Virus record (IMG/VR): IMGVR_UViG_3300033145_001465
Span: 1-42,549 of that record
Length of the DNA: 42,549 nucleotides
From: a virus
Direction: 5' to 3' (one strand)
Part shown: piece by piece, positions 1,044 to 42,549 of the stretch
Numbering within the stretch: the stretch's first letter is position 1
How the letters are laid out: every line of letters begins with the position of its first letter
Made by a program: the position numbers and the translations under genes
The notes under the pieces: model-generated
What the model saw: the letters and a program-made list of their open reading frames with translations, nothing else
What the model was told of the DNA's origin: nothing
The model's database searches: none

Positions 1044-3313
1044 TGAAATTGACTGCAAAGGATCTTATAAACGAGGAACGTACAGAGAAAGTCGGAGGGG
1101 TATATCCGGAACTTGAAGCCGAATCTCGAGGTTTAGAGGAAGAATCTTTACGAAATAAACGGCGATCAGCGGGTCGGGTTGCTCAAGATAATATTCAAGA
1201 GGGAGATTCGGTAGTGATGAAGGGTTTAACTACTTCTGCTCCTGGTACTGTAATTGAAGTTGATTTGGATCATCATATTCCGGAGGCGAAGGTTAAGTGG
1301 GAAGATGGAACGTCTGGTATTTACGCACTTAGTCAGATAGAGAAACAAGCGGGTCGGGTTGCTCAAATGTCCATGTCGACTGGCGAGGAACGATCGATCG
1401 AAGATTATAAAGACGATAAAGAGGAAGAAGAGGAAGGCCAGTTTAGTGAAGAGGAGGTTGGAATAATGGCGAAGAAATACCCGTATGCTGGGTTATACAA
1501 GAATGTAAAGGTTTCCCGTAAAGCAGGGACTGGATGGTTTACTGTAAGCAATGGAGATAGGGTAGTCGCCTTGGTTCCAGTTCCACGGGATTTACAAGCA
1601 CGAAAAATCACTCCTGATGTTTATGCGAATCAGATCTTAAGGATGATTGCAAGCACGGGTATGGTTAAGACGATCAAACGGTTTGCAGGGCGGATTGCTC
1701 AGTCATCTGATCCTGGCGTTGTGGGAAGCGGAGATAGAGACTTTATCCCGGCCTCTGATCCGGCCTCTGATCAGTCAATATTACCTCGATCTGATTCAGA
1801 TATGATGGTGAAACGAATGCCTGGTCCTGGAGGTACAACTCTTACCGAACAGGGTGATGCTAGAATGAAACACGACCCAAGGGGTATTGGGAACAGTGCT
1901 ATCGACGGTAGAGATACTGATATGCTTGGTGAGACAGCACCGCCTTTGCCTTTGAATGTGACTCAAATGCCCGGTAGTGATATGAGGGAGAAAAGGCTGC
2001 CAAAATCTGTTGACGATAATGTTTTATTTGGTGGTGGTAACGATATGAGATCAGCATCTATTCAGGATTTGCTGGTACACAAAGCTCAGAAAGATGAGGA
2101 CGACGAGAAAGAAAAGGATAAAGAAGATGAGAAAGAGGCTCGTCGGATGAACCCTCATGTACTAGCAGCAATATTGGCAGCTCGGAAAGCTCAAAATAGA
2201 TCTGGACCTGAAACACTACCTTTGCCTGATCCTGATCCTGATCCTGGACCTGAAACACTACCTTTGCCTGATCCTGATCCTGAAATCCCTGGCCAGATCC
2301 CTGACCCAGAAAGTCCGTTTCCCGAACCTGGCCCTGAAATTCCTGGTCCTATAAAGCCAGTACCTATGTCTGCCAGACGAAATCCTTGGTTTAATAGGCA
2401 ATCGGGATCGTTATGGGATACGATTATTGCTCCAATTAAACCTTCGGGGCCGGGGACAATAAATCGACCTTCACAGGAACAGTTGGAACAGGTTGAGGAT
2501 ACAGGGCAACCGACCCCAGAACCGACCCCAGAACCGACCCCAGAACCAACTCCTGAACCTGAAAAGCCCTACGTACCACCGCCGATTTTGGGCCAAAGGA
2601 GTACGGACTTGGTAATTGCGGAGTCTGATTTTCAAGGCGTTATATCTGATCTGGAAGCTCACATGGCAAAGAAAAATGAAAAGGTGTTAGCTACATTTAA
2701 GAAAGCATATACCGAACGCTTCGCCCGCTCAATCTTGCTTGCCTCTGATCGTCAGAGGTTGAATCAGGAAACATGCGCTTTAAAGGTTGCAATGGGCGAT
2801 ACGCTTTATGAGCCTAAGAGGCTTGCAGGTGTACCTCTAGAAGGTTTTAACGAAGATGATATTTATATGTTAGTTGAGGCGGCTTTTGACACGGGATTAA
2901 CTCCGTTTGTTCAATCATTGATACGCCAGGCAATGAAGTTCTTGGATATGCCTCAGGAAGCTTTTTTGGCAATTGAAGCCGATTCAAAGAACTTGAGGCC
3001 TGTTCGAGTGGCCAAGGACGACGAGGACGAAGAAGAAAAGGAAGAAGAAGATAAAGAGGCCAGGCGTAGATTAGCAGCCGACGAAAAAGAGGATGAGGAC
3101 GAAAAAGACGAAGAAGAGAAAGATATGGATTATGGCGATAAAGATGCAAGGATGTACAATCGGTTAGCTGCAAAGGCTGCCCAAGGAAATATGCATCTTG
3201 CCGCCACCCCGACAGTCCATCCAGCTGGTTTGTCACGGCGGCATCCCAATTTACGCACGGCATTAAGGGGAACTCCCCTTGAAGAGAGGTACCCGAAACT
3301 GCTAAATGGTTAG
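1043..3313 (+). CDS. Large acidic low-complexity scaffold-like head protein
   Basis: A 756-residue protein between protease and capsid genes, where phages keep their scaffold. It is modular: charged N-terminus; a small SH3/KOW-like segment (about 50-100, EGDSVVMKG ... AKVKWEDGTSGIYAL); an acidic run (about 120-140); a second basic/aromatic globular segment (about 144-210); Pro/Asp/Glu repeats (about 385-520); a helical segment (about 530-660); and more Glu/Asp/Lys runs near the end. AGR[VI]AQ occurs three times, at about 43, 103 and 215. The next recognisable gene, the decoration-like one, starts 46 bases downstream. Scaffold function is inferred from position, acidity and low complexity; I recognise no named family. 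It could instead be an internal head protein. Confidence 0.5.
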   Translation: MKLTAKDLINEERTEKVGGVYPELEAESRGLEEESLRNKRRSAGRVAQDNIQEGDSVVMKGLTTSAPGTVIEVDLDHHIPEAKVKWEDGTSGIYALSQIEKQAGRVAQMSMSTGEERSIEDYKDDKEEEEEGQFSEEEVGIMAKKYPYAGLYKNVKVSRKAGTGWFTVSNGDRVVALVPVPRDLQARKITPDVYANQILRMIASTGMVKTIKRFAGRIAQSSDPGVVGSGDRDFIPASDPASDQSILPRSDSDMMVKRMPGPGGTTLTEQGDARMKHDPRGIGNSAIDGRDTDMLGETAPPLPLNVTQMPGSDMREKRLPKSVDDNVLFGGGNDMRSASIQDLLVHKAQKDEDDEKEKDKEDEKEARRMNPHVLAAILAARKAQNRSGPETLPLPDPDPDPGPETLPLPDPDPEIPGQIPDPESPFPEPGPEIPGPIKPVPMSARRNPWFNRQSGSLWDTIIAPIKPSGPGTINRPSQEQLEQVEDTGQPTPEPTPEPTPEPTPEPEKPYVPPPILGQRSTDLVIAESDFQGVISDLEAHMAKKNEKVLATFKKAYTERFARSILLASDRQRLNQETCALKVAMGDTLYEPKRLAGVPLEGFNEDDIYMLVEAAFDTGLTPFVQSLIRQAMKFLDMPQEAFLAIEADSKNLRPVRVAKDDEDEEEKEEEDKEARRRLAADEKEDEDEKDEEEKDMDYGDKDARMYNRLAAKAAQGNMHLAATPTVHPAGLSRRHPNLRTALRGTPLEERYPKLLNG
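2204..2283 (+). repeat. 42-base tandem duplication encoding Pro-Asp repeats
   Basis: A 42-base unit starting GGACCTGAAACACTACC is repeated almost twice in tandem (units begin at 2204 and 2246), itself ending in six-base CCTGAT iterations. It encodes GPETLPLPDPDPDP-type peptide in the scaffold-like gene and keeps the reading frame. Confidence 0.9.
2510..2557 (+). repeat. 12-base tandem repeat encoding Pro-Thr-Pro-Glu
   Basis: Three exact copies of CCGACCCCAGAA followed by one degenerate copy (CCAACTCCTGAA), encoding PTPE units in the Pro-rich linker of the scaffold-like gene. The 12-base period preserves frame. Confidence 0.9.
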
Positions 3314-3359
3314 TAGTTTTGCGAGTCATAAAATACTAATTGAAAGGAGGTGACAAAGT

Positions 3360-4115
3360 ATGACAACAGGAAGATTAGAAGCGTTTCCAAGTGCGAATTT
3401 TCCGTTTGCTAACGGTCTTGATTTAGGTCGTTCGGTAATTGGGAGGTCTCTTGGAGCTTATGAGGCGGAACCGACGGCAACGTTTAGGGCTGGTATGCTT
3501 GTATCTCGTAACAGTTCAGGGCTTATTATACCCTCTGTTGGCGCCGATCCAATTGGCGTAGCAAAGTGGAATAAATCACTGGTCTTGAAAGCGGCTATCA
3601 TTGATGAGCCCGTTACTCTCGTTGCAACAACTGCGAGCAATCTTGCTCACGCAACCGTGGAAAATGTAAAGGTGACTGACATCACCGGAGTTACGACCTA
3701 TACTGTCACGACTGATTATGTCATTAATGCAACTAATGGAACGATCACTCGTAATGGTACTGGAGCAATTACATCCGGACAGACTGTTCTGGTAACCTAC
3801 ACGTATCAGCTGACTGAAACGAACCTTGAATTCCAGGGTAGGAACTTCTTTAACTTCATTGACGATGTCAGCAATCAGGCTGGTCGTATAGCAGTGATTC
3901 AGGATTGGAGTTTATTGTTTACTACTCAGTATGATACTTCGAATGCATTCGCGGTGAATACTCTGCTCTATTCTGGTGGAGGAGTGACATCAGCCTTAAT
4001 TGGTCTGTTTAGCACGGATTCTGGTGAAGGGCCAGTGGTTGGCAAGGTAGCCCAGGTCCCGACAGCATCTGACCCGTTCTTAGGTGTTGAAATGGGAGGT
4101 AATCCGTCAGCGTAA
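3360..4115 (+). CDS. Putative capsid decoration/stabilisation protein
   Basis: A 251-residue protein immediately upstream of the major capsid gene, the usual place for a decoration protein. It has a very strong SD (AAAGGAGGTGA, 8 bases before the ATG), fitting an abundant structural protein. Residues about 80-155 look like a beta-sandwich insert (VTTYTVTTDYVINATNGTI ... GQTVLVTYTYQ), a module common in phage virion proteins. The rest is Gly/Ala/Ser-rich with no Cys. AGRIA at about 172 resembles the repeated peptide of the scaffold-like protein. Function is inferred from position, SD strength and composition. Confidence 0.5.
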   Translation: MTTGRLEAFPSANFPFANGLDLGRSVIGRSLGAYEAEPTATFRAGMLVSRNSSGLIIPSVGADPIGVAKWNKSLVLKAAIIDEPVTLVATTASNLAHATVENVKVTDITGVTTYTVTTDYVINATNGTITRNGTGAITSGQTVLVTYTYQLTETNLEFQGRNFFNFIDDVSNQAGRIAVIQDWSLLFTTQYDTSNAFAVNTLLYSGGGVTSALIGLFSTDSGEGPVVGKVAQVPTASDPFLGVEMGGNPSA

Positions 4116-4153
4116 ACCGATAATAAATTTAATTGAGAGGAGGTGAAAGAAAA

Positions 4154-5299
4154 ATGACAGGTAATCCATATCGCAGTAAATCCATTCCGTTCAAAATACC
4201 GAATACTGCAAGTCGTAAAGACGAGAAAATGTATCACGAGGGGACATATAATCCTCACGCATTCGGCGGAAGAACTGAATTGGGTCAGGCAGTAGCATCA
4301 CCTGATAGTCGCATGTTTGATAAGAAAGGCCAGATCAACGCATACGACAATAAGGATGCACTGAATCAGATCGCCTACTTGCTTAATGGTTTAACCCGTG
4401 AGACGCCGGTCAGGCAAGCCCGTAGAGAGGACACGATGTCCAAAGAGGCTCGTAGGGATATTCTGCTCAGCGCTTTGAAGGATCCGACTGGAGAAGGGTT
4501 TGCTATCGTTGGTCAGGAGTTGTTACTCCCGATCAAAGATATCATTGATTACGAAGGTTGGGCTCGGAAAATCTATCGGGTTCGTCCGTTAGCTCAGGGT
4601 GAGCTGTTCCGTATTGCCAAGGATGTCCGTTCAACCGCATGGGTGGTAGGACAGGATGGTCAGGCAATCGAATCCAGGGTCTATGGTCGGTACATTCAGC
4701 CGAGCGAGTTTAAGATTGCTTCGTTCCCTACGGTGGACATTGCTGATATCTATCAGATGAACTTTGATGTTCTGGATAGAGCTCAGGATACTGCCAGACA
4801 AGAGGTCGAACTCCAGGAGGACAAAGCGGCTCTCGCACTGTTGGATCGTGCAGCCCAGACTGTAAATGCCGAGACGTTTTTCTCGACTCTTAGTATTGGA
4901 CCGTTCGAAGATGTTCGGTACCAGGTTGAGCGTTGGAGACTCGTCGTCGAGAAGTTCCTCATTAATCGTGCGGAACTGTCCGATATTGTGAAAACAATGA
5001 GTGCATCGGTAGACCCAGTGACGGAACGTGAATTGATTCTTGCTGGTTACATTGGAAGTATTTTGAATGCGCAGATCATAACTGCCGCAGGCACGGGCGT
5101 TGAAGAGGTAGTTCCGGCTGGAACATTTTATGCTATTACGGGTTCGGAGTATCTTGGTGAAGAGGGAGTTCGTGTTGAACTGTTCAGTGAGCCGTTCAAT
5201 AAATACTCGAACCAGGAACTCGTTAAAGGTTGGGCATTTGCAGAGATCGTCGGATTCGGAATCTCGAATTCTCGGTCTGTTGCCAGAGGTACCAAGTAG
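4154..5299 (+). CDS. Major capsid protein, HK97-like fold
   Basis: A 381-residue protein after protease, scaffold-like and decoration-like genes and before a strong terminator, which is the classic position of the major capsid protein. The first 100 or so residues are polar and charged (N-arm/delta-domain type, with KEARRDILLSALKDPTGEGF near 98-117). The main body contains an E-loop-like stretch and a helical spine (DRAQDTARQEVELQEDKAAL). I chose ATG 4154 because AGGAGGTG lies 8 bases before it; the frame is open back to TTG 4133, but that start would place the SD inside the gene. The leader GGAGGTGAAAGAAAA recurs exactly before the tail-tube gene. Mature N-terminus is unknown; processing by the upstream protease is expected. 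Confidence 0.75.
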   Translation: MTGNPYRSKSIPFKIPNTASRKDEKMYHEGTYNPHAFGGRTELGQAVASPDSRMFDKKGQINAYDNKDALNQIAYLLNGLTRETPVRQARREDTMSKEARRDILLSALKDPTGEGFAIVGQELLLPIKDIIDYEGWARKIYRVRPLAQGELFRIAKDVRSTAWVVGQDGQAIESRVYGRYIQPSEFKIASFPTVDIADIYQMNFDVLDRAQDTARQEVELQEDKAALALLDRAAQTVNAETFFSTLSIGPFEDVRYQVERWRLVVEKFLINRAELSDIVKTMSASVDPVTERELILAGYIGSILNAQIITAAGTGVEEVVPAGTFYAITGSEYLGEEGVRVELFSEPFNKYSNQELVKGWAFAEIVGFGISNSRSVARGTK

Positions 5300-5325
5300 T
5301 ATCCGTAATCGAAACCACTAACTTA

Positions 5326-5360
5326 GTAAGGGCGGCCTGATAATTGGTGGCCGCCCTTAC
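5326..5360 (+). terminator. Strong terminator after the capsid gene
   Basis: A perfect 12-bp GC-rich stem (GTAAGGGCGGCC at 5326-5337 pairing with GGCCGCCCTTAC at 5349-5360) with an 11-base loop, then TTTATAAC. It sits 26 bases after the capsid stop codon and could reduce read-through from the head operon. The stem is symmetrical, so it may act on both strands. Confidence 0.8.
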
Positions 5361-5412
5361 TTTATAACTAACCTGATAAACATCAGAGGCCATTAGCAGT
5401 GGGGATGTAAGT

Positions 5413-6357
5413 TTGAATGATGAAAGCAGCGATTCGAGAACAAGGTCAGAGGTTATTGTCGTTGACAAGGACGGTACGTTTTTATTATCGACGAACCCTG
5501 CCAAAGCTCGTAAGCTACTGAAAAGTAAAGCTGCGGTCTTAATTCAGAAACACCCGCCTGCAATAAAACTGAAGCGAAAAGTTGATTCGCCAGATGTCAG
5601 GAGGAGAAACAAAATGCAAATTCCAAGTTTTACAAAGTTTTTTAGTAAAGAGAAAGATATTTATATCCAGAACGTATCTGGAGGAGTAGTGAGCATGGTT
5701 TTTGGTACTGGAGAACACCAGGAGCCATATACCTTGCAAAATTCAAGAGATCCCGTCATACTTACGAATTTTATTCCGTTTGCTAAGATTAAAGAAAGCA
5801 CAGATTTTCGTAAGATGGCCACGAATGTCCCACCACGTATTGCCGTTTTAACTGAAAAGGAGTATGAAGCCTATTATGCTCGTAAACAGAATATCACTGG
5901 TAAATCCGACGAAGAGTTGAAAAGGGAAGCTGAGCAGGCGAGAATAACTTTTCAGAATCGTCAGAACAAGGTTGATGAGGCTCCGCCAGCTCCGATTCAT
6001 AAAGTGGTTGAGGATGGGAAGTATCAGGGAGAAAAGAAGCGAGTCGAGCCTTTGGAAATAATCCTAGAAGGGGAGACGATTAATCCTCGACTTTTGGGAG
6101 TATGTCAGAAGGTTTCAAGGGAGATCCCACAAGATAAGTGGCCCCCAGCAATTCAAGTTTTGGAAGAGTTGCAGACAATAGCAGATACTGTAGCACTATC
6201 TAGTGAGGATTTGGATTATATTCGTGCGAACGTCCCTTTTAAGACAGTGAGGAAGTGGGCACAGAATTTTCAAAATGCACTTGCAGCAGCGGAAGAAATT
6301 GATGACGGTCTGGATGAGGTTTTAGAAGAGGCTTCTCAGGAGTCCGTCGTAACATAG
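5413..6357 (+). CDS. Phage protein with IscB-type PLMP (RRXRR) N-terminal domain
   Basis: A 314-residue frame opened by TTG 5413. Residues 13-56 (VIVVDKDGTFLLSTNPAKAR, then KLLKSKAAVLIQ ... PPAIKLKRKV) match the layout of the PLMP/RRXRR domain at the N-terminus of IscB nucleases: beta strand, LM-P-like turn, P-x-KARKLL helix, KA-V strand, P-x-xI-L. No RuvC or HNH part follows. Residues 68-314 form a different domain with KFFSKEKDIYIQNVSGGVVSM and a helical, charged C-terminus, more like a virion or assembly protein. A second ATG at 5614 (Met68) has its own GAGGAG SD 7 bases upstream, so a PLMP-less 247-residue product is likely, and may be the main one. The gene stands alone between two terminators. 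Function unknown. Confidence 0.7.
   Translation: MNDESSDSRTRSEVIVVDKDGTFLLSTNPAKARKLLKSKAAVLIQKHPPAIKLKRKVDSPDVRRRNKMQIPSFTKFFSKEKDIYIQNVSGGVVSMVFGTGEHQEPYTLQNSRDPVILTNFIPFAKIKESTDFRKMATNVPPRIAVLTEKEYEAYYARKQNITGKSDEELKREAEQARITFQNRQNKVDEAPPAPIHKVVEDGKYQGEKKRVEPLEIILEGETINPRLLGVCQKVSREIPQDKWPPAIQVLEELQTIADTVALSSEDLDYIRANVPFKTVRKWAQNFQNALAAAEEIDDGLDEVLEEASQESVVT
5601..5616 (+). promoter_or_regulatory. Internal ribosome binding site and second start (ATG 5614)
   Basis: GAGGAG at 5601-5606, preceded by CAG, lies 7 bases before an in-frame ATG at 5614, inside the reading frame opened at TTG 5413. It falls right after the PLMP-like domain and before the second domain, and is better than the site serving TTG 5413. 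It would give a separate shorter protein. Confidence 0.65.
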
Positions 6358-14025: not shown

Positions 14026-14668
14026 ATGCCGAAAGTCGGATTTAAGCATTCAGAAGAGGCTAAACGTAAGGTCAAAGAAACTTGGGCTAAGAAACGGGCT
14101 GACGGCTACGCAAGCCCTCATAGGGGTAGTAAGCTGTCAGAGGAGCATAAAAAGAAGAATAAAGAAACTCGCAGAGGGTTGGGAGAGTCCTTTGAAGGGC
14201 AGAAAGCATACAGCTGAAGCTAGGGAGAAGATAAGTGAGTCCCATAAGGGCAAAAAGCATTCAGATGAATCTAAACGAAAGATGAGCCTCGCCAAAAGGG
14301 GTAAAGGTCGATGGAATTTGCATCATAAGATTCCAATTCATTGGTTTGTTAAAGAGGGTCTAACAGATCCGAAAATTTTGAATGCTTTGAACAATTTAAA
14401 GCCTCTTTGGCGAGTAGATCATACTGATGAGCATAAAAGTCTCAGAAAGTTTACGAAAGAACAGAAAAAGTTCTGGGTGGAGTTGTTTACTTGGCATGTC
14501 GAGCACTCTCGTCGTAAGCCGATCAATCTTAGCCCTTATCTAATCAGGCAACCGATAGATATAGCCGGGTATAAAGAATTCGAAATAATCTACCCTCTAA
14601 ATATTCCAGTAAGAAACAGCTTATTGATGGAACAAGCTGGAATCTACGATAACCCTTCATACTGTTAA
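14026..14668 (+). pseudogene. NUMOD3-HNH homing endonuclease, frameshifted and internally deleted
   Basis: Two frames together encode one degraded nuclease. Frame one, from ATG 14026, gives NUMOD3-type repeats (KHSEEAKRKVKETWAKKRAD). Near 14167-14172 the reading must shift: the -1-like alternative frame resumes as EGWESPLKGRKHTAEAREK and then KGRWNLHHKIPIHWFVKEGL with the HNH core (HH, N-N-LKPLW, H). An apparent TTG start at 14192 is probably an artefact of the shift. Compared with the intact copy at 31856, about 70 residues between the NUMOD3 repeats and the HNH core are missing. The C-terminal tail (SRRKPINLSPYLIRQPID) matches the third copy. It is inserted between neck genes and is likely inactive as a whole protein. 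Confidence 0.75.
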
Positions 14669-29320: not shown

Positions 29321-31845
29321 TTATTGGTCAAGAATTAGATCGTACTTTGGAGATAATAAATGATCTCGCCCTAGAGAGTCCAAGGTACGAGATGTTTATA
29401 TCATCTCTGCCAACTGGGGAGTACTATGCTACAGCTGGGCACGTTATTCCGAAACGGTCATCAGCAGATCAGCTTAGGTTAACGGCAGCAGATGCCCCAT
29501 CAAGTTCATTCACAGTATCTGTGAATGGCGTACAGACACGCACGATTATTACTGATGGATCAGGCATCGTGGAATTTTCGGAACTGCTGGCCGCTGGCAC
29601 TCGTCCTGGGTTAGTAACGATTACTGTTACAGAGGTTGCCACATCTAGGGCGCTTATTGCATACTTGACAGTTGCCAATTACGCTGTTTGGGATGCAGCA
29701 TTAACGGATGCAGTACTTGACGTCGATGGAAGCATTCAGGATATTCAGGAAGATACATTTTTGAATGGGGTGGATGCAGAGGATATAGAGCAGAAATTTG
29801 GACGTAGGATTGCAACTCCTAGGGCAGACGCTTGGTCTCTTGATGTATACAAGGATATTTTGAATGAGGTGTTTCAAGCATATGATATATTTAGTGGGAC
29901 ACAAAGGGGATTAGAACAGGTAATAGGAGCAGTGACCCAGGTTCCACCCTTTGACTATTCCAGATTCCTTTTTGGTCCCAGGTGGGTTTTGGGATTCCAG
30001 TATTTGGAAAATAATGAATTCGTAATCGATACAGATTCCGATGGGATACCTGATGACTGGTACGTTGAAACTGCTGGGACGACAATGGCGATTGATACTG
30101 CGGGAGTTGGATTAACGAATTTATTTGCAGATCAGCGGTTAAAAGTCACAGCGGCAGGGGTTTCACCTGAGGCAGTTTTTTCTATATCCTTGCCTTTATT
30201 TAGTCAGTATTTAGGATTTAGTTTTACGGCGAGTGCTTGGGTGGAGTCAGCTGGTTCATTTTCAATAGTGGTAGGAATATCTGATGACGGTGGAGTTTCA
30301 TGGACAGAAAGCGCACCTGTAGTTACGACTACTTCGCCACAGTTTCTTTCGGTAGCAAAGATAATCGATCCAGCAGCTCCTGATTTACGTGTGAGATTGA
30401 GGCAGACTGGATCAGGAGCTGGAAACGTCTGGTATATTGAAAGAGCGGCTTTATTTATACCAGACGTTACTGCATTATATTTAGGGCGTGGGACGATACC
30501 GAGAAGTATTAGGGATTCAAAACTTGGAAGAGCAGTAGTTTGGTGGGCTCCCGATGAGTTGACGGCAGAAGAATTAGCAACATTTGGATTATCTGATTTT
30601 ATTTCGATTGTACAGGGTGGATCAAGTCCTGTAGGTCACGTAGACAATATAGTTCCGGCTCATACTGCCGTAACGGATAGGGAAGCGACTCTGAGATCTC
30701 CGACGGCACTGACAATTGCTGGTATTAAGATTTCACATCTTAGATCAGGTATGCCAGTTGGGTCGGCTTTAATTGATTGGGACACGACTCTTAATCAGTT
30801 AAGTTGGAGAGAGTTTGGTGAGGTTGGGCTGGGTACTCCGGTAACGATAACTCAGTCTGGTTTATATGTTTTGGAGAATGTGGCAGGTCTGGATTCGGTT
30901 GTAGTTTCAGTTGATTTTGCTTTATTAGATCCGGCAATCACTGCTTCGAATGCTGTTATAGTTGTATCGACCTTAGTAGGAACGATGGAGTCAGCTGATT
31001 GGTCGGCAGGCTCAGTGCGGACAAACTTGGCTATAGTGTCTCGAACTCCTGATCGATTTTCATTTTTGGAGCCTGAGCTGATTAGTGCTCAGTCTGAGGT
31101 AGTTTCATTTTCTACTATAACGAGTCAGGCATCGTTATCCGTAGACTCGACCGAGGATCAGGCGGCTTCTGTTTTATTTGAAGATGGGGTGGCAGTACCG
31201 AATACTGGGTGGGCATATGTTAATGAAACAGCTATAAGTATTGTCACATTAAATCCGTTGGCTGAGTATGAATTTAGATATGAAGTTCTCCTGGAATTCG
31301 AGACGGCAGTAATAGATCTGGGAGTTAATTTCGCCTCGTTTGTTTGGTTTTTTGATTGTTACGCTTTTGAGCGATTTGAGAAGGCTACTATTGAGGTGGA
31401 TGCGGTTCAAGAGCTGATAATAGATCCAGCTACTTTACAGGCCGATTTACGATTTAGGAGTACAGAGGATCAAGAGACCAGTGTTTTGAAAAGCAATGTG
31501 GCAGGCATAGAAAGTATACTGCCATCGAAGCTCTGGCAGTATTTGGATGCAACAACAGTGGTTTTATTGAGTACTGGCTATGATCAGAGTGCAACGTACT
31601 CACTAAATTTTAAGGCAGAAAAGATGGAGAGGATTCAGGTTCCAAGACTTGAGTTTACCATATCATCTAGTCCTGCAGGGGTGGTATATGGCCCATATAC
31701 TTCGATAAGCCGCGGTGATGCCATAGACGCCTCGAACAGGTATCACAAAATTAATGTCAAATGTTTTGGGGTCCTTGATGTCGGGGATGTGAAAATTCGT
31801 AGTCTCGTAATTAAAGGTTTTACGTTTATTAATGATAGTATATGA
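29317..31845 (+). CDS. Large multi-domain baseplate/tail-fibre-network protein
   Basis: An 842-residue protein following the J-like gene, where gpI or gp7/gp10-type proteins occur. Residues about 1-220 look like the wedge-attaching part, with helix VYKDILNEVFQAYDIFSGTQ and FLFGPRWVLG. At 237-249, DTDSDGIPDDWY is a calcium-binding thrombospondin-3-like motif opening a carbohydrate-binding-like beta domain. About 460-550 is a repeat module also present twice in the 668-residue fibre protein downstream. Ig-like strands lie at about 60-120. The intact HNH gene begins right at its stop. A host-contact role is inferred. Confidence 0.6.
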   Translation: MIIGQELDRTLEIINDLALESPRYEMFISSLPTGEYYATAGHVIPKRSSADQLRLTAADAPSSSFTVSVNGVQTRTIITDGSGIVEFSELLAAGTRPGLVTITVTEVATSRALIAYLTVANYAVWDAALTDAVLDVDGSIQDIQEDTFLNGVDAEDIEQKFGRRIATPRADAWSLDVYKDILNEVFQAYDIFSGTQRGLEQVIGAVTQVPPFDYSRFLFGPRWVLGFQYLENNEFVIDTDSDGIPDDWYVETAGTTMAIDTAGVGLTNLFADQRLKVTAAGVSPEAVFSISLPLFSQYLGFSFTASAWVESAGSFSIVVGISDDGGVSWTESAPVVTTTSPQFLSVAKIIDPAAPDLRVRLRQTGSGAGNVWYIERAALFIPDVTALYLGRGTIPRSIRDSKLGRAVVWWAPDELTAEELATFGLSDFISIVQGGSSPVGHVDNIVPAHTAVTDREATLRSPTALTIAGIKISHLRSGMPVGSALIDWDTTLNQLSWREFGEVGLGTPVTITQSGLYVLENVAGLDSVVVSVDFALLDPAITASNAVIVVSTLVGTMESADWSAGSVRTNLAIVSRTPDRFSFLEPELISAQSEVVSFSTITSQASLSVDSTEDQAASVLFEDGVAVPNTGWAYVNETAISIVTLNPLAEYEFRYEVLLEFETAVIDLGVNFASFVWFFDCYAFERFEKATIEVDAVQELIIDPATLQADLRFRSTEDQETSVLKSNVAGIESILPSKLWQYLDATTVVLLSTGYDQSATYSLNFKAEKMERIQVPRLEFTISSSPAGVVYGPYTSISRGDAIDASNRYHKINVKCFGVLDVGDVKIRSLVIKGFTFINDSI

Positions 31846-31855
31846 TGGAGTTACT

Positions 31856-32785
31856 ATGTCTGATTTAAGTTTAATTCATATAGAGGAAAGTATCAGAAAA
31901 ATGCCTGAGGGCTATATTAGTCCTTTGAAGGGTAGAAAGCTGTCTGCGGAGACTAGGAAAAAGATGAGCGAAGCTGCCATAGGTAGAAAGGCTTCAGCTG
32001 AGACCAGGAAAAAGATAAGCGAGGTTCAGAAGGGCAAAAAGATTTCAGATGAGTCTATAAAGAAGTGCAAAGAAACCTGGGCTAAGAACGTAGCCGACGG
32101 ATACGAGAGCCCTCATAAGGGTAGAAAGAAATCTGAAGCTCATAGGGAGAAAATAAGCAAGACGTTGAAGGGTAGAAAGCGTTCTGATGAGTTCAAGGAG
32201 AAGATAAGCAAGACGTTGAAGGGTAGAAAGCATACGGCTGAATCCAGGAAGAAGATGAGCAAGGCTCAGAAGGGTAGTAATAGCTCCCGGTGGAATCCAA
32301 ACAGGGAAGAAGTTGCTAGGAATGCAGCGGTATATAGTCTAATGGTACAGTATTTGAATTTACCCTTTCGTGCTAAGGTAGACACTCATGAAGTTATTTG
32401 TTGTTTGGGGTATACAAAAGAAGATTTTGTAACTGTTATTGAAGGTAAATTCTATTCTGATATGGGATGGAAAAATAGGGGCAGGCGGAAGGGTAAATGG
32501 AATATACATCATATTTTGCCTATTTCATGGTTTGTAAAATTTAATGTAACAGACCCGAAAATTTTGAATGCTTTAGATAATTTAAAGCCTCTTTGGCGGA
32601 TGGAGCACACGTCCACACATAAAAGTCTCAGAAAGTGTACGAAAGAGCAGAGACAGCTCTGGGTGGAGTTATTCGTCTGGCATGTCGAGTATTCTCGACG
32701 AAAGCCAATTGGTCTAGAAACCAGATCGCCTATAAGTTTAAGTAATTACATTCTGAGGAAGCCTTTAGATTTAAGAGGAGTATAA
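31856..32785 (+). CDS. NUMOD3-HNH homing endonuclease, intact
   Basis: A 309-residue protein. ATG 31856 is preferred, with GGAG five bases upstream; the frame also opens at 31832 inside the previous gene. Residues about 20-140 carry a string of NUMOD3 modules (repeated KGRK-SAE-RKKMSE units), which bind DNA. About 145-215 is a helical domain (NREEVARNAAVYSLMVQYLN ... YTKEDFVTVIEGKFY), and about 218-265 the HNH core WNIHHILPISWF, NALDNLKPLW, then H-x-x-H. It is free-standing between two tail genes with no promoter of its own. The only uninterrupted member of three related genes, it may drive spread of this locus. Confidence 0.9.
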   Translation: MSDLSLIHIEESIRKMPEGYISPLKGRKLSAETRKKMSEAAIGRKASAETRKKISEVQKGKKISDESIKKCKETWAKNVADGYESPHKGRKKSEAHREKISKTLKGRKRSDEFKEKISKTLKGRKHTAESRKKMSKAQKGSNSSRWNPNREEVARNAAVYSLMVQYLNLPFRAKVDTHEVICCLGYTKEDFVTVIEGKFYSDMGWKNRGRRKGKWNIHHILPISWFVKFNVTDPKILNALDNLKPLWRMEHTSTHKSLRKCTKEQRQLWVELFVWHVEYSRRKPIGLETRSPISLSNYILRKPLDLRGV

Positions 32786-36589: not shown

Positions 36590-36994
36590 ATGTCTAGGAG
36601 TAAAACAGATTATGAATTGATAGACTACTGTCGAGAACCTCTCCCTGAAAAGAGAGTATGCTCCGCCTGCTATTTTGCAAATTGTAGGCGGAGCATTATT
36701 TATATTACGAAGAATTTAGACACAATTCGTAACCAGATTTGGAAAATCCGAGTATCAAATGGGCCTATCCCACAGCCAGTGGAGATAAGGCACGGGCGAA
36801 GTCCTATTAATTTGAGTCTGCATACTTGTTCCATGTTTAAGAAGATTGTATTTTTAGATGGGGACGACTTTGAAGATGGTCCTGATTACGGCGATTATTT
36901 TGTTCAACACGAACGAGAGATGAGAAGGCGCAGGTATCCGGCGTATTTGGATCATGGTCGAAAACCTTTGGATTTGAAAGGGCACAAAGATTGA
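36590..36994 (+). CDS. Cys-containing small protein coupled to the exonuclease
   Basis: A 134-residue protein. Cys14, C24, C27, C32 and C80 (CREP ... CSACYFANC ... HTCS) suggest a metal site. The C-terminus is basic then HGRKPLDLKGHKD. No SD precedes ATG 36590, but the stop overlaps the exonuclease start (TTGA), which argues that the gene is real and expressed with it. A strong terminator-like hairpin lies within the codons for C24-C32. Function unknown; zinc- or iron-binding is inferred from spacing. Confidence 0.5.
   Translation: MSRSKTDYELIDYCREPLPEKRVCSACYFANCRRSIIYITKNLDTIRNQIWKIRVSNGPIPQPVEIRHGRSPINLSLHTCSMFKKIVFLDGDDFEDGPDYGDYFVQHEREMRRRRYPAYLDHGRKPLDLKGHKD
36658..36696 (+). terminator. 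Terminator-like hairpin inside a coding region
   Basis: A 13-bp stem, ATGCTCCGCCTGC (36658-36670) with GTAGGCGGAGCAT (36684-36696, one G-T pair), 13-base loop, then TATTTATATTA. It is placed 100 bases after the last tail gene, within the Cys-containing 134-residue frame. It may end or attenuate the tail transcript. Confidence 0.5.
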
Positions 36995-38556
36995 AATATT
37001 TATTGATTGACGGTAATCCGATTTGTCATAGGGCATATCATGTATTTAATTTAAGTACTGCAGATAAAGTTCCAACTGGGGTTTTGTTTGGTTCGATCTC
37101 AATTTTGAAGTCTTTATTGGAGAGTCTGGATTATGATGATGTGGTAATCTGTTGGGATAAAGGTAAGAGGCTGAGGAGAGAATTATATCCTGCATATAAG
37201 CATAAGGTATTCACGCCTCCGGCTGAGGGAGAGGAGCCCTATTTCAGACCAGAGGAGTTTTTCCCGCAAGTAGAGCTATTACAAGACTTTTTGCATGATG
37301 TGGGAGCAAAGCAGTTTATGATTGAGGGTGTAGAGGCTGACGACCTGCTCGGGATAATCTCACAGGATCTGAGGGATATGGGTCATACTGTTATGATTGC
37401 AACTATCGACTCAGATATGCAACAGCTAATAGACGGCAAGGATGTCACGGTTTATGATACAAAGAAAAAGCAGGTGCTAGACGAGGCTTGGTTTTTGCAG
37501 ACTTATGGAGTAGAGCCGATTAAGCTCATTGATATAAAAGCTTTGACTGGGGACGGTTCGGATAATATTCCGGGCATTAAAGGCGTAGGGATAAAGACGG
37601 CTTTAAAGATGGTTAGAGGGTTTGACGGGATAGACAATTTATATGAATCGGGTTTACCTGATAAAGCGGATAAGCGTACTCGGTCAGTTTATGAAAACTT
37701 TCAGAGGGTTATGTTCAATAAGTCCTTAATCAAGATTTTTCGATTACCTGAAGAGCTCGGTGAGGAGCAGTCTGAATATTTGAAGCAGTGGTTTTTGAAT
37801 TTTAAAGGGGATCCTCACATAGACAAGGTTGCAGCCCGCGCCTTATTGGAGCATTGGGAAATTCAGAAATTCGCAGATGGTGAGCTTCTCGAATGGTTTG
37901 CAAATTGTTTTGCAGATGAGGATCCAAAGATGAGGAAGGTTAGAGATGCTCAAGTTCTTGACGAAGAGTTATCATCTTGTATATGTTGTAGGGCTATCAC
38001 GGTTCAAAGCGAGGAACCTATATCCCTGATAAATTCTGAGCCTGTTCCGGCTGTTGGGAAAGTTCGAACTGATTGGATGATTATAGGAAGAAATCCAGGC
38101 GAAGAGGAAGACAGGGATGGTGAACCCTTTATTGGAAAAGCTGGTAAAAGGTTGAACAAGATGATCGAGGATATCGGTCAGACCAGAGACGACTTCTGGA
38201 TTACAAATGTAGTGAAGTGTTATAGTCCAGGCAATCGACCTCCGATCTTAGAAGAGATTGAAAATTGTACTAAGTTCTTGCAACGAGAGATCGACCTGAT
38301 CCAGCCTAAGTTAATTGTCACCTGTGGTAAAGAAGCGTTTGAGTCAGTTGTTGGAGTGAGAGACGGCTTTTTAAAGAATGCTGGAGCAGTGATTGACGGG
38401 AAAGATTGTCATGGCCGAGTCAAAGTTCCAAGCTCTTGTTTAGTGATTGTATTCAATCATCCGTCCCACGCATTGAGAAGTCCGCAGGGCGAAGAAACGT
38501 TCAAGATTTGTACATCAGTATTACGTAGGATAATACAGGGGTTAGAAAGCTCTTAA
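36991..38556 (+). CDS. Fusion of 5'-3' exonuclease (FEN/PIN-type) and family-4-like uracil-DNA glycosylase
   Basis: A 521-residue protein from TTG 36991. Residues 1-300 are a T4/T5/Pol I-type 5' nuclease: LLIDGN (D7), WDKGKRLRRELYPAYKHK (D56), EADD (E115, D117, D118), IDSD (D140, D142), then TGDGSDNIPGIKGVGIKTA (D188, D191), the helix-three-turn-helix. Residues about 325-521 are a uracil-DNA glycosylase of the Fe-S kind: GEPFIGKAGKRL (377-388), TNVVKCYSPGNRPP (405-418) and NHPSHALRS (489-497). C330, C333 (or C332), C410 and C426 fit the four cluster ligands. The first UDG motif reads GRNPG where families 4 and 5 have GEAPG or GLAPG. The two activities would act in flap/primer removal and uracil excision. 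Confidence 0.85.
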   Translation: MKYLLIDGNPICHRAYHVFNLSTADKVPTGVLFGSISILKSLLESLDYDDVVICWDKGKRLRRELYPAYKHKVFTPPAEGEEPYFRPEEFFPQVELLQDFLHDVGAKQFMIEGVEADDLLGIISQDLRDMGHTVMIATIDSDMQQLIDGKDVTVYDTKKKQVLDEAWFLQTYGVEPIKLIDIKALTGDGSDNIPGIKGVGIKTALKMVRGFDGIDNLYESGLPDKADKRTRSVYENFQRVMFNKSLIKIFRLPEELGEEQSEYLKQWFLNFKGDPHIDKVAARALLEHWEIQKFADGELLEWFANCFADEDPKMRKVRDAQVLDEELSSCICCRAITVQSEEPISLINSEPVPAVGKVRTDWMIIGRNPGEEEDRDGEPFIGKAGKRLNKMIEDIGQTRDDFWITNVVKCYSPGNRPPILEEIENCTKFLQREIDLIQPKLIVTCGKEAFESVVGVRDGFLKNAGAVIDGKDCHGRVKVPSSCLVIVFNHPSHALRSPQGEETFKICTSVLRRIIQGLESS

Positions 38557-38652: not shown

Positions 38653-38683
38653 TTGAATAGTGTTTAATAGTTTTGTATATAAT
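38653..38683 (+). promoter_or_regulatory. Possible promoter before the third HNH gene
   Basis: TTGAAT (38653-38658) and TATAAT (38678-38683), with a long 19-base spacer, precede the SD AGGAGA of the HNH gene. The -10 is perfect, but spacing and -35 are poor, and the region is AT-rich, so chance is possible. Confidence 0.35.
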
Positions 38684-38705
38684 AATATTGATAGGAGACT
38701 TCAAT

Positions 38706-39497
38706 TTGTTACATGAGCAAAAAGGTAAGCACAAAGAAACCCGGGCCAAAAGTCACTCTGAAGGCTGGATTAGTCCGAATAAGGGCAGGGTCGGCAGAAA
38801 GCACACAGCTGAGACCAGGAAGAAGATGAGTGCGGCTGCTTCCGGAGAGAATAATCCTAATTTTGGCAAAAAGCATACTGCTGAGTCTAAGGCGAAGATA
38901 AGCAAGGCGCTTTCTGGAGAGAATAATCCTAGGTATGGTAGAAAGCATTCAGCTGAGACCAAGGAGAAGATGAGCGCGGCTAAGAAGGGTAAAAAGCATT
39001 CAGCTGAATCCCTGGAGAAGATGAGTGCGGCTAAGAAGGGCAGTAACAGTCCTAATTGGAATCTAAACAGGGAAGAAGTTGCTAGGAGAGCAGCAGTACG
39101 TGGGCTTATGTGGCATTATTTGAATTTACGATTGGGAGCTAAGATAGACGATCATGAAGTTACTAGAATTTTAGGGTATTCAAAGTCGGAGTTTATAGCT
39201 GCTATTGAGGGTAAGTTTTGTTCTGGTATGCAGTGGGGTGATAGGGGAGTGAAGAGGGATAAATGGCAGATGCATCATAAGATTCCCGTATTATGGTTTG
39301 TAAAATTTAATGTAACTGACCCCATGGTTATTAATGCTTTAGACAATTTGAAACTTCTGTGGCACCTGGATCATAGGAAAGAGCACAAACGTGTGCGGAA
39401 GTTCACAAAAGAACAGAAAAGTTCTGGGTGGAGTTATTTGTTTGGCATGTTGAGCACTCTCGACGAAAGCCGATCAATCTTAGCTTTATCTAATTAG
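38706..39497 (+). pseudogene. NUMOD3-HNH homing endonuclease, frameshifted at the C-terminus
   Basis: A frame from TTG 38706 (AGGAGA SD eight bases upstream; an earlier TTG at 38673 has none) encodes NUMOD3 repeats (KGRVGRKHTAETRKKMSAAA), the helical middle domain (NREEVARRAAVRGLMWHYLN) and the HNH core WQMHHKIPVLWF with NALDNLKLLW. At about 39416-39420 the run reads CAGAAAAGTT, while the first copy has CAGAAAAAGTT: one A is lost, so TKEQKKFWVELF becomes TKEQKSSGWSYLF. A second base is missing near 39484. The HNH core is upstream of the break, so some activity might remain, but the conserved tail is gone. Restoring both frames gives homology to the first copy down to about 39530. Confidence 0.8.
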
Positions 39498-41552: not shown

Positions 41553-42549
41553 ATGTACGAACTTTTAGAAAAGCTAGCAATCACCAGTTCTAGAAATGAG
41601 AAGGAGCAGCTGCTTCGAGATTTTCCTGATCCTGAGCGGCTCAAAAAGTTGTTTCAGTATACTATGAACACTTATTGGCAATACGGAATCCATTTGCCGG
41701 ATCAGGAAGGTTTCGGCAATTACTCAGCCGAAAAGGAACTGGAGTGTGAGGATTCGTTTTATTTTCTGCTTGACGAACTCAAGGAGCGGAAAATTACAGG
41801 TAATGCGGCAAAGAACGAAATGCGAAGCTTGCTTATGGAGATGTCCCCATTACAGGCAAAGTGGCTCACAAAAGCTCTGAATCGGAATTTTAAGAATGGG
41901 GTTCAGGGAACGACCATCAATAAAATCTGGCCCGGTTTGATTCCAAGTTTTAAGTTGCAATTATGCAGTAAGTATAAAGGTGGTGATCCTGGGAAGGTGA
42001 TGTTCCTGGAACCTAAGCTGGATGGTATCAGGGTGGTCTTGATAATTGGCCATGACGGCAAGATGGAAATGCTCAGTCGTAATGGTAAGCCGGTGAACAA
42101 CTGGGGGCATATCAAAGATGAAGTGAAAGCAAAAGGTCTCAAGGGATTGGTGATCGACGCAGAGTTGATGGCGGATGATTGGAACCTCTCCGCTGGATTA
42201 GCTCGGAAACATGGGGAAAGGGACGAACGGCTTAAGCTACACGCTTTTGATAGGCTGTCCTATGACGATTTTCAGGCTCAGGATTGTCAGTATATGTTGA
42301 AAGATCGTAGGGCAGCATTAAAAAGGCAGTTCACAGGATTCGAGACGATCCTTGTTACTGATATGATCCTTGTGGAAACGGAAGAGCAGATCATGAAATC
42401 AGCCCAAGAATTTATGGAGGGTGGATATGAAGGAGCAGTCCTCAAGGATCCGGAAAGTCTATATACGTTCAATCGGTCAGCAGTCTGGCAGAAAGTGAAA
42501 TTCGAAGATACTCACGACTTGGAGATAACTGGATTCCAGGAAGGCACCG
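41553..42549 (+). CDS. ATP-dependent DNA ligase, cut by the window edge
   Basis: ATG 41553 (GTGGAGGA SD) opens a frame without stop to the window end (332 residues seen). After a helical N-terminal domain it shows the nucleotidyltransferase motifs in order: I, EPKLDGIR (Lys nucleophile, about 150-160); III, VIDAELM; then FDRLSYDD; IV, EGAVLKD; V, WQKVKF. Then the OB domain begins (DLEITGFQEG). This is an ATP-dependent ligase of T4/T7 kind, sealing nicks in phage DNA replication and repair. It lies in one operon with the ferredoxin-like gene; the exonuclease-UDG fusion is about 3 kb upstream. Confidence 0.9.
   Translation, partial: MYELLEKLAITSSRNEKEQLLRDFPDPERLKKLFQYTMNTYWQYGIHLPDQEGFGNYSAEKELECEDSFYFLLDELKERKITGNAAKNEMRSLLMEMSPLQAKWLTKALNRNFKNGVQGTTINKIWPGLIPSFKLQLCSKYKGGDPGKVMFLEPKLDGIRVVLIIGHDGKMEMLSRNGKPVNNWGHIKDEVKAKGLKGLVIDAELMADDWNLSAGLARKHGERDERLKLHAFDRLSYDDFQAQDCQYMLKDRRAALKRQFTGFETILVTDMILVETEEQIMKSAQEFMEGGYEGAVLKDPESLYTFNRSAVWQKVKFEDTHDLEITGFQEGT

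Follow-up and report, generated by a model that had tools for sequence, protein, structure and literature searches.

Gene and protein organization of the locus

The window, i.e. the whole stretch of DNA analyzed here (42,549 nucleotides; IMG/VR virus record IMGVR_UViG_3300033145_001465), comes from a large uncultured phage. One of its genes encodes, as a single chain, a FEN-type 5'-3' exonuclease joined to a uracil-DNA glycosylase (UDG) of the Fe-S type. The features of this gene and its surroundings are as follows:

36590..36994, + strand: upstream ORF, 134 aa, family unknown; overlaps the start of the fusion gene (TTGA)
36991..38556, + strand: gene of the FEN-UDG fusion, starting with TTG and encoding 521 aa; the end coordinate includes its stop
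36994..37737, + strand: FEN/5'-3' exonuclease domain, residues 2-249; a resolvase-like N-domain followed by a SAM fold (PF02739, PF01367, alignment, Foldseek)
37738..38034, + strand: inter-domain linker, aa 250-348; flexible at 271-310, carries cluster cysteines 1 and 2 (C330 and C333) (AlphaFold, alignment)
38035..38553, + strand: Fe-S-type UDG domain, aa 349-521 (PF03167, TIGR00758); pocket E373, F380, N406, N415 and H490; cysteines C410 and C426
38086..38112, + strand: UDG motif 1, GRNPGEEED, aa 366-374; Arg-Asn replaces the family-4 Glu-Ala/Gly
38673..39497, + strand: NUMOD3/HNH homing-endonuclease-like ORF between the fusion gene and the ligase gene; probably a passenger
41553..42548, + strand: ATP-dependent DNA ligase, its frame still open where the window ends; a homologue of the ligases beside FEN in L364 and L365

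The ORF at 36991-38556 is a single open frame with zero internal stops, and both domains were above their Pfam cut-offs; the original prediction of a FEN and a UDG in one frame was therefore borne out, with exact coordinates. The TTG start lines up with the ATG starts of homologues and shares bases with the stop codon of the ORF before it. AlphaFold2 modeling (38-sequence alignment) predicted two confident domains (pLDDT ~90 for FEN and ~95 for UDG) and a flexible linker at residues 271-310 (pLDDT <50). Structure comparison with Foldseek matched the UDG half to TthUDG (1ui1; TM 0.88) and the FEN half to ExoIX and T5 FEN (TM ~0.8). Several trivial explanations of such a chain could be rejected. 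An assembly chimera is ruled out by the presence of 12 distinct fusions across many metagenomes, one of which (L092) aligns with the window protein across the join, and the idea that an intron cuts the gene short ahead of a polymerase portion does not agree with the homologues, which stop at the same point. PF00476 was absent from both the fusion protein and the window record, indicating that this is not a UDG-PolA fusion.

In the FEN half, 5_3_exonuc_N (PF02739) covered residues 2-173 (E 1.7e-33) and the SAM fold (PF01367) residues 174-249 (E 3.1e-17), both above cut-off. All nine FEN active-site acids (D7, D56, E115, D117, D118, D140, D142, D188 and D191) are present and identical in the alignment of all 12 fusions, which agrees with the earlier description of a complete FEN-type nuclease. 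FEN is a structure-specific nuclease and no general degrader of DNA. The fold and active-site acids are shared with T5 D15, ExoIX/Xni, the exonuclease domain of PolA and SPO1 gp32.85; however, these are either standalone proteins or part of PolA, and none of those examined bears a UDG.

Distribution of the FEN-UDG chain

Single-protein pattern scans of viral_contigs gave no fusion match, and profile-guided scans then recovered 12 distinct full-length FEN-UDG proteins on 16 IMG/VR contigs: the window protein and L092, L273, L275, L362, L363, L446, L450, L451, L453, L454 and L461. Thus, the whole-chain search for the same domain order that had been proposed yielded 11 further distinct phage proteins. 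The alignment of L092 with the window protein extended over residues 1-515 (33% identity, E 3e-81), and identity between the window protein and most fusions was ~30-35% (FEN 26-35% and UDG 28-40% against the other fusions). Domain order is conserved and lengths are similar among these 12 strongly diverged proteins. Since L453/L454 (96% identity) and L363/L451 (72%) form close pairs, fewer than 12 well-separated lineages are represented. The 584-aa FEN-UDG ORFs of L453 and L454 (2785-4536) are ~60 residues longer, and their start may be misplaced.

On the other hand, no place covering 80% of the fusion protein was found among 50,697 phage records, nor was the fusion found among 72,556 plasmid records at the same coverage. 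The scan of bacterial genome contigs considered the best 80 loci, judged by matched residue range only, and does not establish absence from cellular genomes. No report of a FEN-UDG chain was found in the open-access literature. The original view that the two domains are not known as one chain holds in that FEN-UDG is absent from the annotated phage and plasmid sets, but the broader arrangement is not unprecedented, because a UDG on a phage replication enzyme is known from UDG-PolA.

Family, motif 1 and pocket of the UDG half

The UDG domain was recognized at residues 355-504 (Pfam, E 2.6e-29, above cut-off) and the score for the family-4 profile TIGR00758 exceeded its cut-off (134.5 versus 125.3 bits), whereas the equivalog NF040953 stayed under its own cut-off (NCBIfam) and the UdgX profile TIGR03914 reached 91.3 bits against 189.95. 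UdgX is likewise a family-4-derived Fe-S UDG group; however, the window UDG has neither GEQPG nor the KRRIH loop, and YSPGNRPP occupies the loop position. The five pocket residues E373, F380, N406, N415 and H490 correspond to TthUDG E47, F54, N80, N89 and H155, all of which are kept, and four cluster-type cysteines (C330, C333, C410 and C426) were aligned, consistent with a putative Fe-S cluster. Motif 1 of the window is GRNPG and not the GE(A/G)PG by which family-4 UDGs are defined (PMC10359453). The earlier description as a complete family-4-like UDG thus stands for the fold, most pocket residues and the four cysteines, but not for motif 1, which is without the family-4 Glu. Compared with TthUDG/UDGa, the window UDG has the fold, Fe-S cysteines, five pocket equivalents and above-cut-off TIGR00758 score in common, and differs in GRNPG and in the attached nuclease.

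The motif-1 Asn is common to SMUG1 (family 3; GMNPG), Mug/TDG (family 2; GINPG in Mug) and the window (PMC10359453). By profile, fold and cysteine set, however, the window UDG belongs to the family-4 Fe-S group, whereas SMUG1 and Mug have no Fe-S cluster, and the likeness in the motif is probably convergent. In TthUDG, the effects of E41 and G42 are correlated: activity falls by two to three orders of magnitude when either residue is changed alone (~900-fold for E41Q), whereas the QD doublet regains most of it, with a loss of only ~five-fold (PMC5387724). Because these residues act as a pair, an altered motif-1 doublet need not be inactive.

The RN doublet was found in 10 of the 12 fusions. 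It occurs together with the full pocket in eight (the window, L092, L273, L275, L363, L450, L446 and L451), and L453 and L454 deviate at one pocket residue only (N89 to D). The remaining two have lost motif 1 and the equivalents of E47, F54 and N89 (L362; 4983-6437) or of E47, F54, N80, N89 and H155 (L461; 1771-3261), while all FEN acids and the four cluster cysteines remain in both. The four cysteines are present in 11 of the 12 fusions, L092 having Tyr at the second. With the family-4 motif-1 Glu missing and the pocket lost in two of 12 proteins, glycosylase activity cannot be assumed family-wide.

A further comparison covered nine GRNPG UDGs: five intact fusions (the window, L092, L273, L275 and L363), three free UDGs (L277, L298 and L299) and one on PolA (L310). 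R367, N368, E373, F380, N406, N415 and H490 are invariant in all nine, with 23 of the 152 ungapped columns being invariant overall. A random draw of seven invariant positions would have p ~8e-7, a value that is indicative only, since columns are not independent, the seven positions were picked from known biochemistry and R367/N368 also helped define the set. This pattern argues that the base-binding pocket is maintained in most members and against a role as scaffold only, whereas the decayed L362 and L461 argue that something other than the pocket can preserve the UDG domain. The idea that GRNPG, or xNPG in general, is unique to the fusions was rejected: GQNPG is common in viral UDGs, and four of the GRNPG UDGs (L277, L298, L299 and L310) are without FEN. 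Many viral family-4-like UDGs, free and in some cases Pol-fused, carry GQNPG and not GE(A/G)PG as motif 1 (L019, L021, L049, L071, L072, L082, L274 and others).

Exchange of UDG partners among related phages

Fusion of a UDG to PolA has been described in PaBG and its relatives, where FEN is a separate gene (PMC7412058). We found a UDG-PolA match in SPO1 gp31 and the same fusion on many contigs analyzed here. The phage UDG-PolA proteins (gp205 of the PaBG/Lupandier group, SPO1 gp31, the phiLo polymerase and the solved chain 9qhs) resemble the window protein in carrying a UDG on a replication enzyme, but in the window the partner is FEN and not PolA, the UDG is C-terminal and not N-terminal, and motif 1 is GRNPG. 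In addition, a UDG lies at the C-terminus of DnaE (the alpha subunit of DNA polymerase III) in L050 and L051 (IMGVR_UViG_3300009285_014194 and _3300025015_000053; 1476-5495, 1340 aa), and DnaE is thus a third kind of replication enzyme bearing this domain.

Phylogenetic analysis of 116 viral UDG domains placed the four fusions then known in one group with the free UDG L277 nested among them (support 100/79; 100/99 for the same grouping without the window), inside a wider xNPG group (90/95). L277 (3875-4477) is a lone UDG whose gene order is as around the FEN-UDG of L275. No FEN was found in its 170 kb record, and coupling of the two domains is thus not obligatory. Tandem-repeat proteins (QNQTPEIC-like) adjoin the UDG or FEN-UDG gene in L277 (471-2839) and L363 (1829-3958). 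The FEN tree, built from 118 sequences, joined the six fusions known at that stage with the standalone FENs L364 and L365 (support 100/89). Among standalone FENs, those of the L364 and L365 phages are thus nearest to the FEN of the fusion, and these phages also have a ligase homologous to that of the window; they differ in that FEN is unfused, PolX is present and no UDG was found in their records.

Phages whose capsid protein is at least 60% identical to that of the window were also compared. FEN-UDG is present in the window, G002 and G008. In G003 a UDG is present and FEN was not found, and in G010 FEN is present and UDG was not found; these absences are provisional, as all viral records may be incomplete. 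Virus Rctr197k, whose capsid protein is 66% identical and whose structural genes are syntenic with the window, has UDG-PolA, and a local profile search found no FEN. The occurrence of FEN-UDG, FEN only, UDG only and UDG-PolA among capsid relatives indicates that the UDG domain changes partners. The Rctr197k record (KX853510.1), the nearest named relative, has CRISPR arrays annotated at 110803-112317 and 119281-119535.

Gene neighborhood and repair context

In L364 (3741-8558) and L365 (3713-8898), PolX-like, FEN and ATP-dependent ligase genes lie in the same order, a possible base-excision-repair cluster. In G010 and G011 the standalone FEN comes after a PolX-like gene and before an ATP-dependent ligase. 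PolX was assigned from the thumb and HHH domains, which exceed their cut-offs in L364, the palm profile being below cut-off. The capsid proteins of the L364 record and the window share 64% identity, and the window ligase matched the ligases of L364 and L365 with E-values of 4e-48 and 6e-32. The position of FEN-only cousins in PolX-FEN-ligase clusters supports a role in excision repair, and the window ligase may reflect this gene order with the NUMOD3/HNH ORF in between. Further homing-endonuclease-like ORFs are present at 14192-14668 and 31832-32785, so that such ORFs occur both among the structural genes and beside the fusion. The possibility that the HNH ORF marks a group I intron or another RNA of Rfam was rejected, as the window had zero Rfam matches.

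The neighborhood is not constant. PF01068 detected no ligase in G001 or G002, which carry FEN-UDG, or in the UDG-only G003, all of which may be fragments, and G000-G003 and Rctr197k gave no match to either AP-endonuclease family. Downstream of the fusion in G002 are a helicase of the SNF2 type, matches to DnaB and primase that are weak and fall below the Pfam cut-off, and a PolA without UDG. The original suggestion of an excision-repair system with a ligase 3 kb on is thus supported in part, by the repair-type context and the ligase homologues beside FEN-only cousins, but the ligase does not constantly accompany the fusion, and the five records searched for an AP endonuclease gave none. A self-contained base-excision-repair cassette is weakened by the same observations. 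The anti-uracil-DNA role that was also suggested is conjectural.

Proposed function and alternative explanations

The FEN-UDG chain is real and conserved. We suggest, with a probability of roughly 0.5, that it is a bifunctional phage replication/repair enzyme, probably serving to repair or police uracil in the DNA of the phage, in which a FEN is attached to a UDG that recognizes uracil and in most members probably excises it; both activities and the order of steps below are what we infer. The target that the Fe-S-type UDG half would recognize, and in most members probably excise, is uracil or some similar pyrimidine, with the Asn of the Arg-Asn motif possibly near the catalytic water, as in SMUG1/Mug. 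Excision would create an AP site, a host AP endonuclease would nick it, and the FEN half, which may remove 5' flaps, RNA primers or 5'-deoxyribose-phosphate ends and which tethering would bring to the lesion patch, would then trim the 5' end. The gap would be filled by phage PolA (PolX in FEN-only cousins) and sealed by ligase. This explanation is weakened by the replacement of the motif-1 Glu by Arg, since changes at this residue in TthUDG cost activity unless paired, and the lost pockets of L362 and L461 suggest that glycosylase activity is dispensable in some lineages. A more specific version, somewhat doubtful as a whole, is that one clade of large tailed phages has a single-chain enzyme acting from lesion to flap. 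Its UDG, with a catalytic doublet rewired to resemble SMUG/Mug, would pass the product on to the attached flap nuclease and in some lineages would have turned into a non-catalytic Fe-S scaffold for it, related phages having FEN-only, UDG-only and UDG-PolA versions.

The two members with dead pockets make a different role of the UDG half a serious rival, although on balance an unlikely one: it might mainly serve as a DNA-binding or protein-docking scaffold that tethers FEN at the replication fork, with excision residual or lost. The poxvirus UDG, which serves as a processivity factor, offers a comparison. In L362 and L461 the cluster cysteines and FEN acids outlasted the pocket, the canonical motif-1 Glu is missing family-wide, and other replication enzymes (PolA, and DnaE in L050/L051) carry UDG domains as well. 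However, a scaffold would not be expected to keep the full pocket in eight of 12 fusions and all but one residue in two more, nor pocket positions that are invariant across divergent GRNPG UDGs, and separate GRNPG UDG proteins also exist (L277, L298 and L299).

It is improbable that the chain is a neutral by-product of gene fusion in the replication region, whose halves act independently and uncoupled in Okazaki flap removal and ordinary uracil removal. The predicted flexible linker and the varying state of UDG in related phages (on PolA in Rctr197k, on FEN in the window, G002 and G008, free in G003 and not found in G010) are consistent with this idea, but the fusion has been kept in 12 distinct, strongly diverged proteins, more than would be expected were the joining useless. 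About equally improbable is an offensive or superinfection-exclusion enzyme, in which a shifted substrate (e.g. hydroxymethyluracil, or modified DNA of the host or a rival phage) is recognized and the nuclease degrades the DNA. Such a shift would be in line with the xN doublet that motif 1 shares with SMUG1 and Mug (PMC10359453), and Brig1 and Brig3 provide a precedent of UDG-superfamily enzymes repurposed against phage base modifications (PMC13160076). However, the cousins combine FEN with PolX and ligase, i.e. with repair, and the structure specificity of FEN does not suit general degradation of DNA.

Within the collections searched, FEN as the partner of UDG is a new combination of repair components that are each known, and it fits the habit, already familiar from phages, of placing UDG domains on replication enzymes (PolA, PMC7412058; DnaE). 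The Arg-Asn motif 1 is a natural counterpart of the exchange of the motif-1 pair by mutagenesis in TthUDG. Being compact and expressible, the fused protein lends itself to the question of whether base-excision repair changes when a glycosylase is tethered to the nuclease that acts after it, and its family contains built-in controls: intact-pocket members, two decayed ones, one related UDG without FEN and FEN-only cousins. It therefore bears on the question of why phages repeatedly attach UDG to replication enzymes such as PolA, DnaE and FEN.
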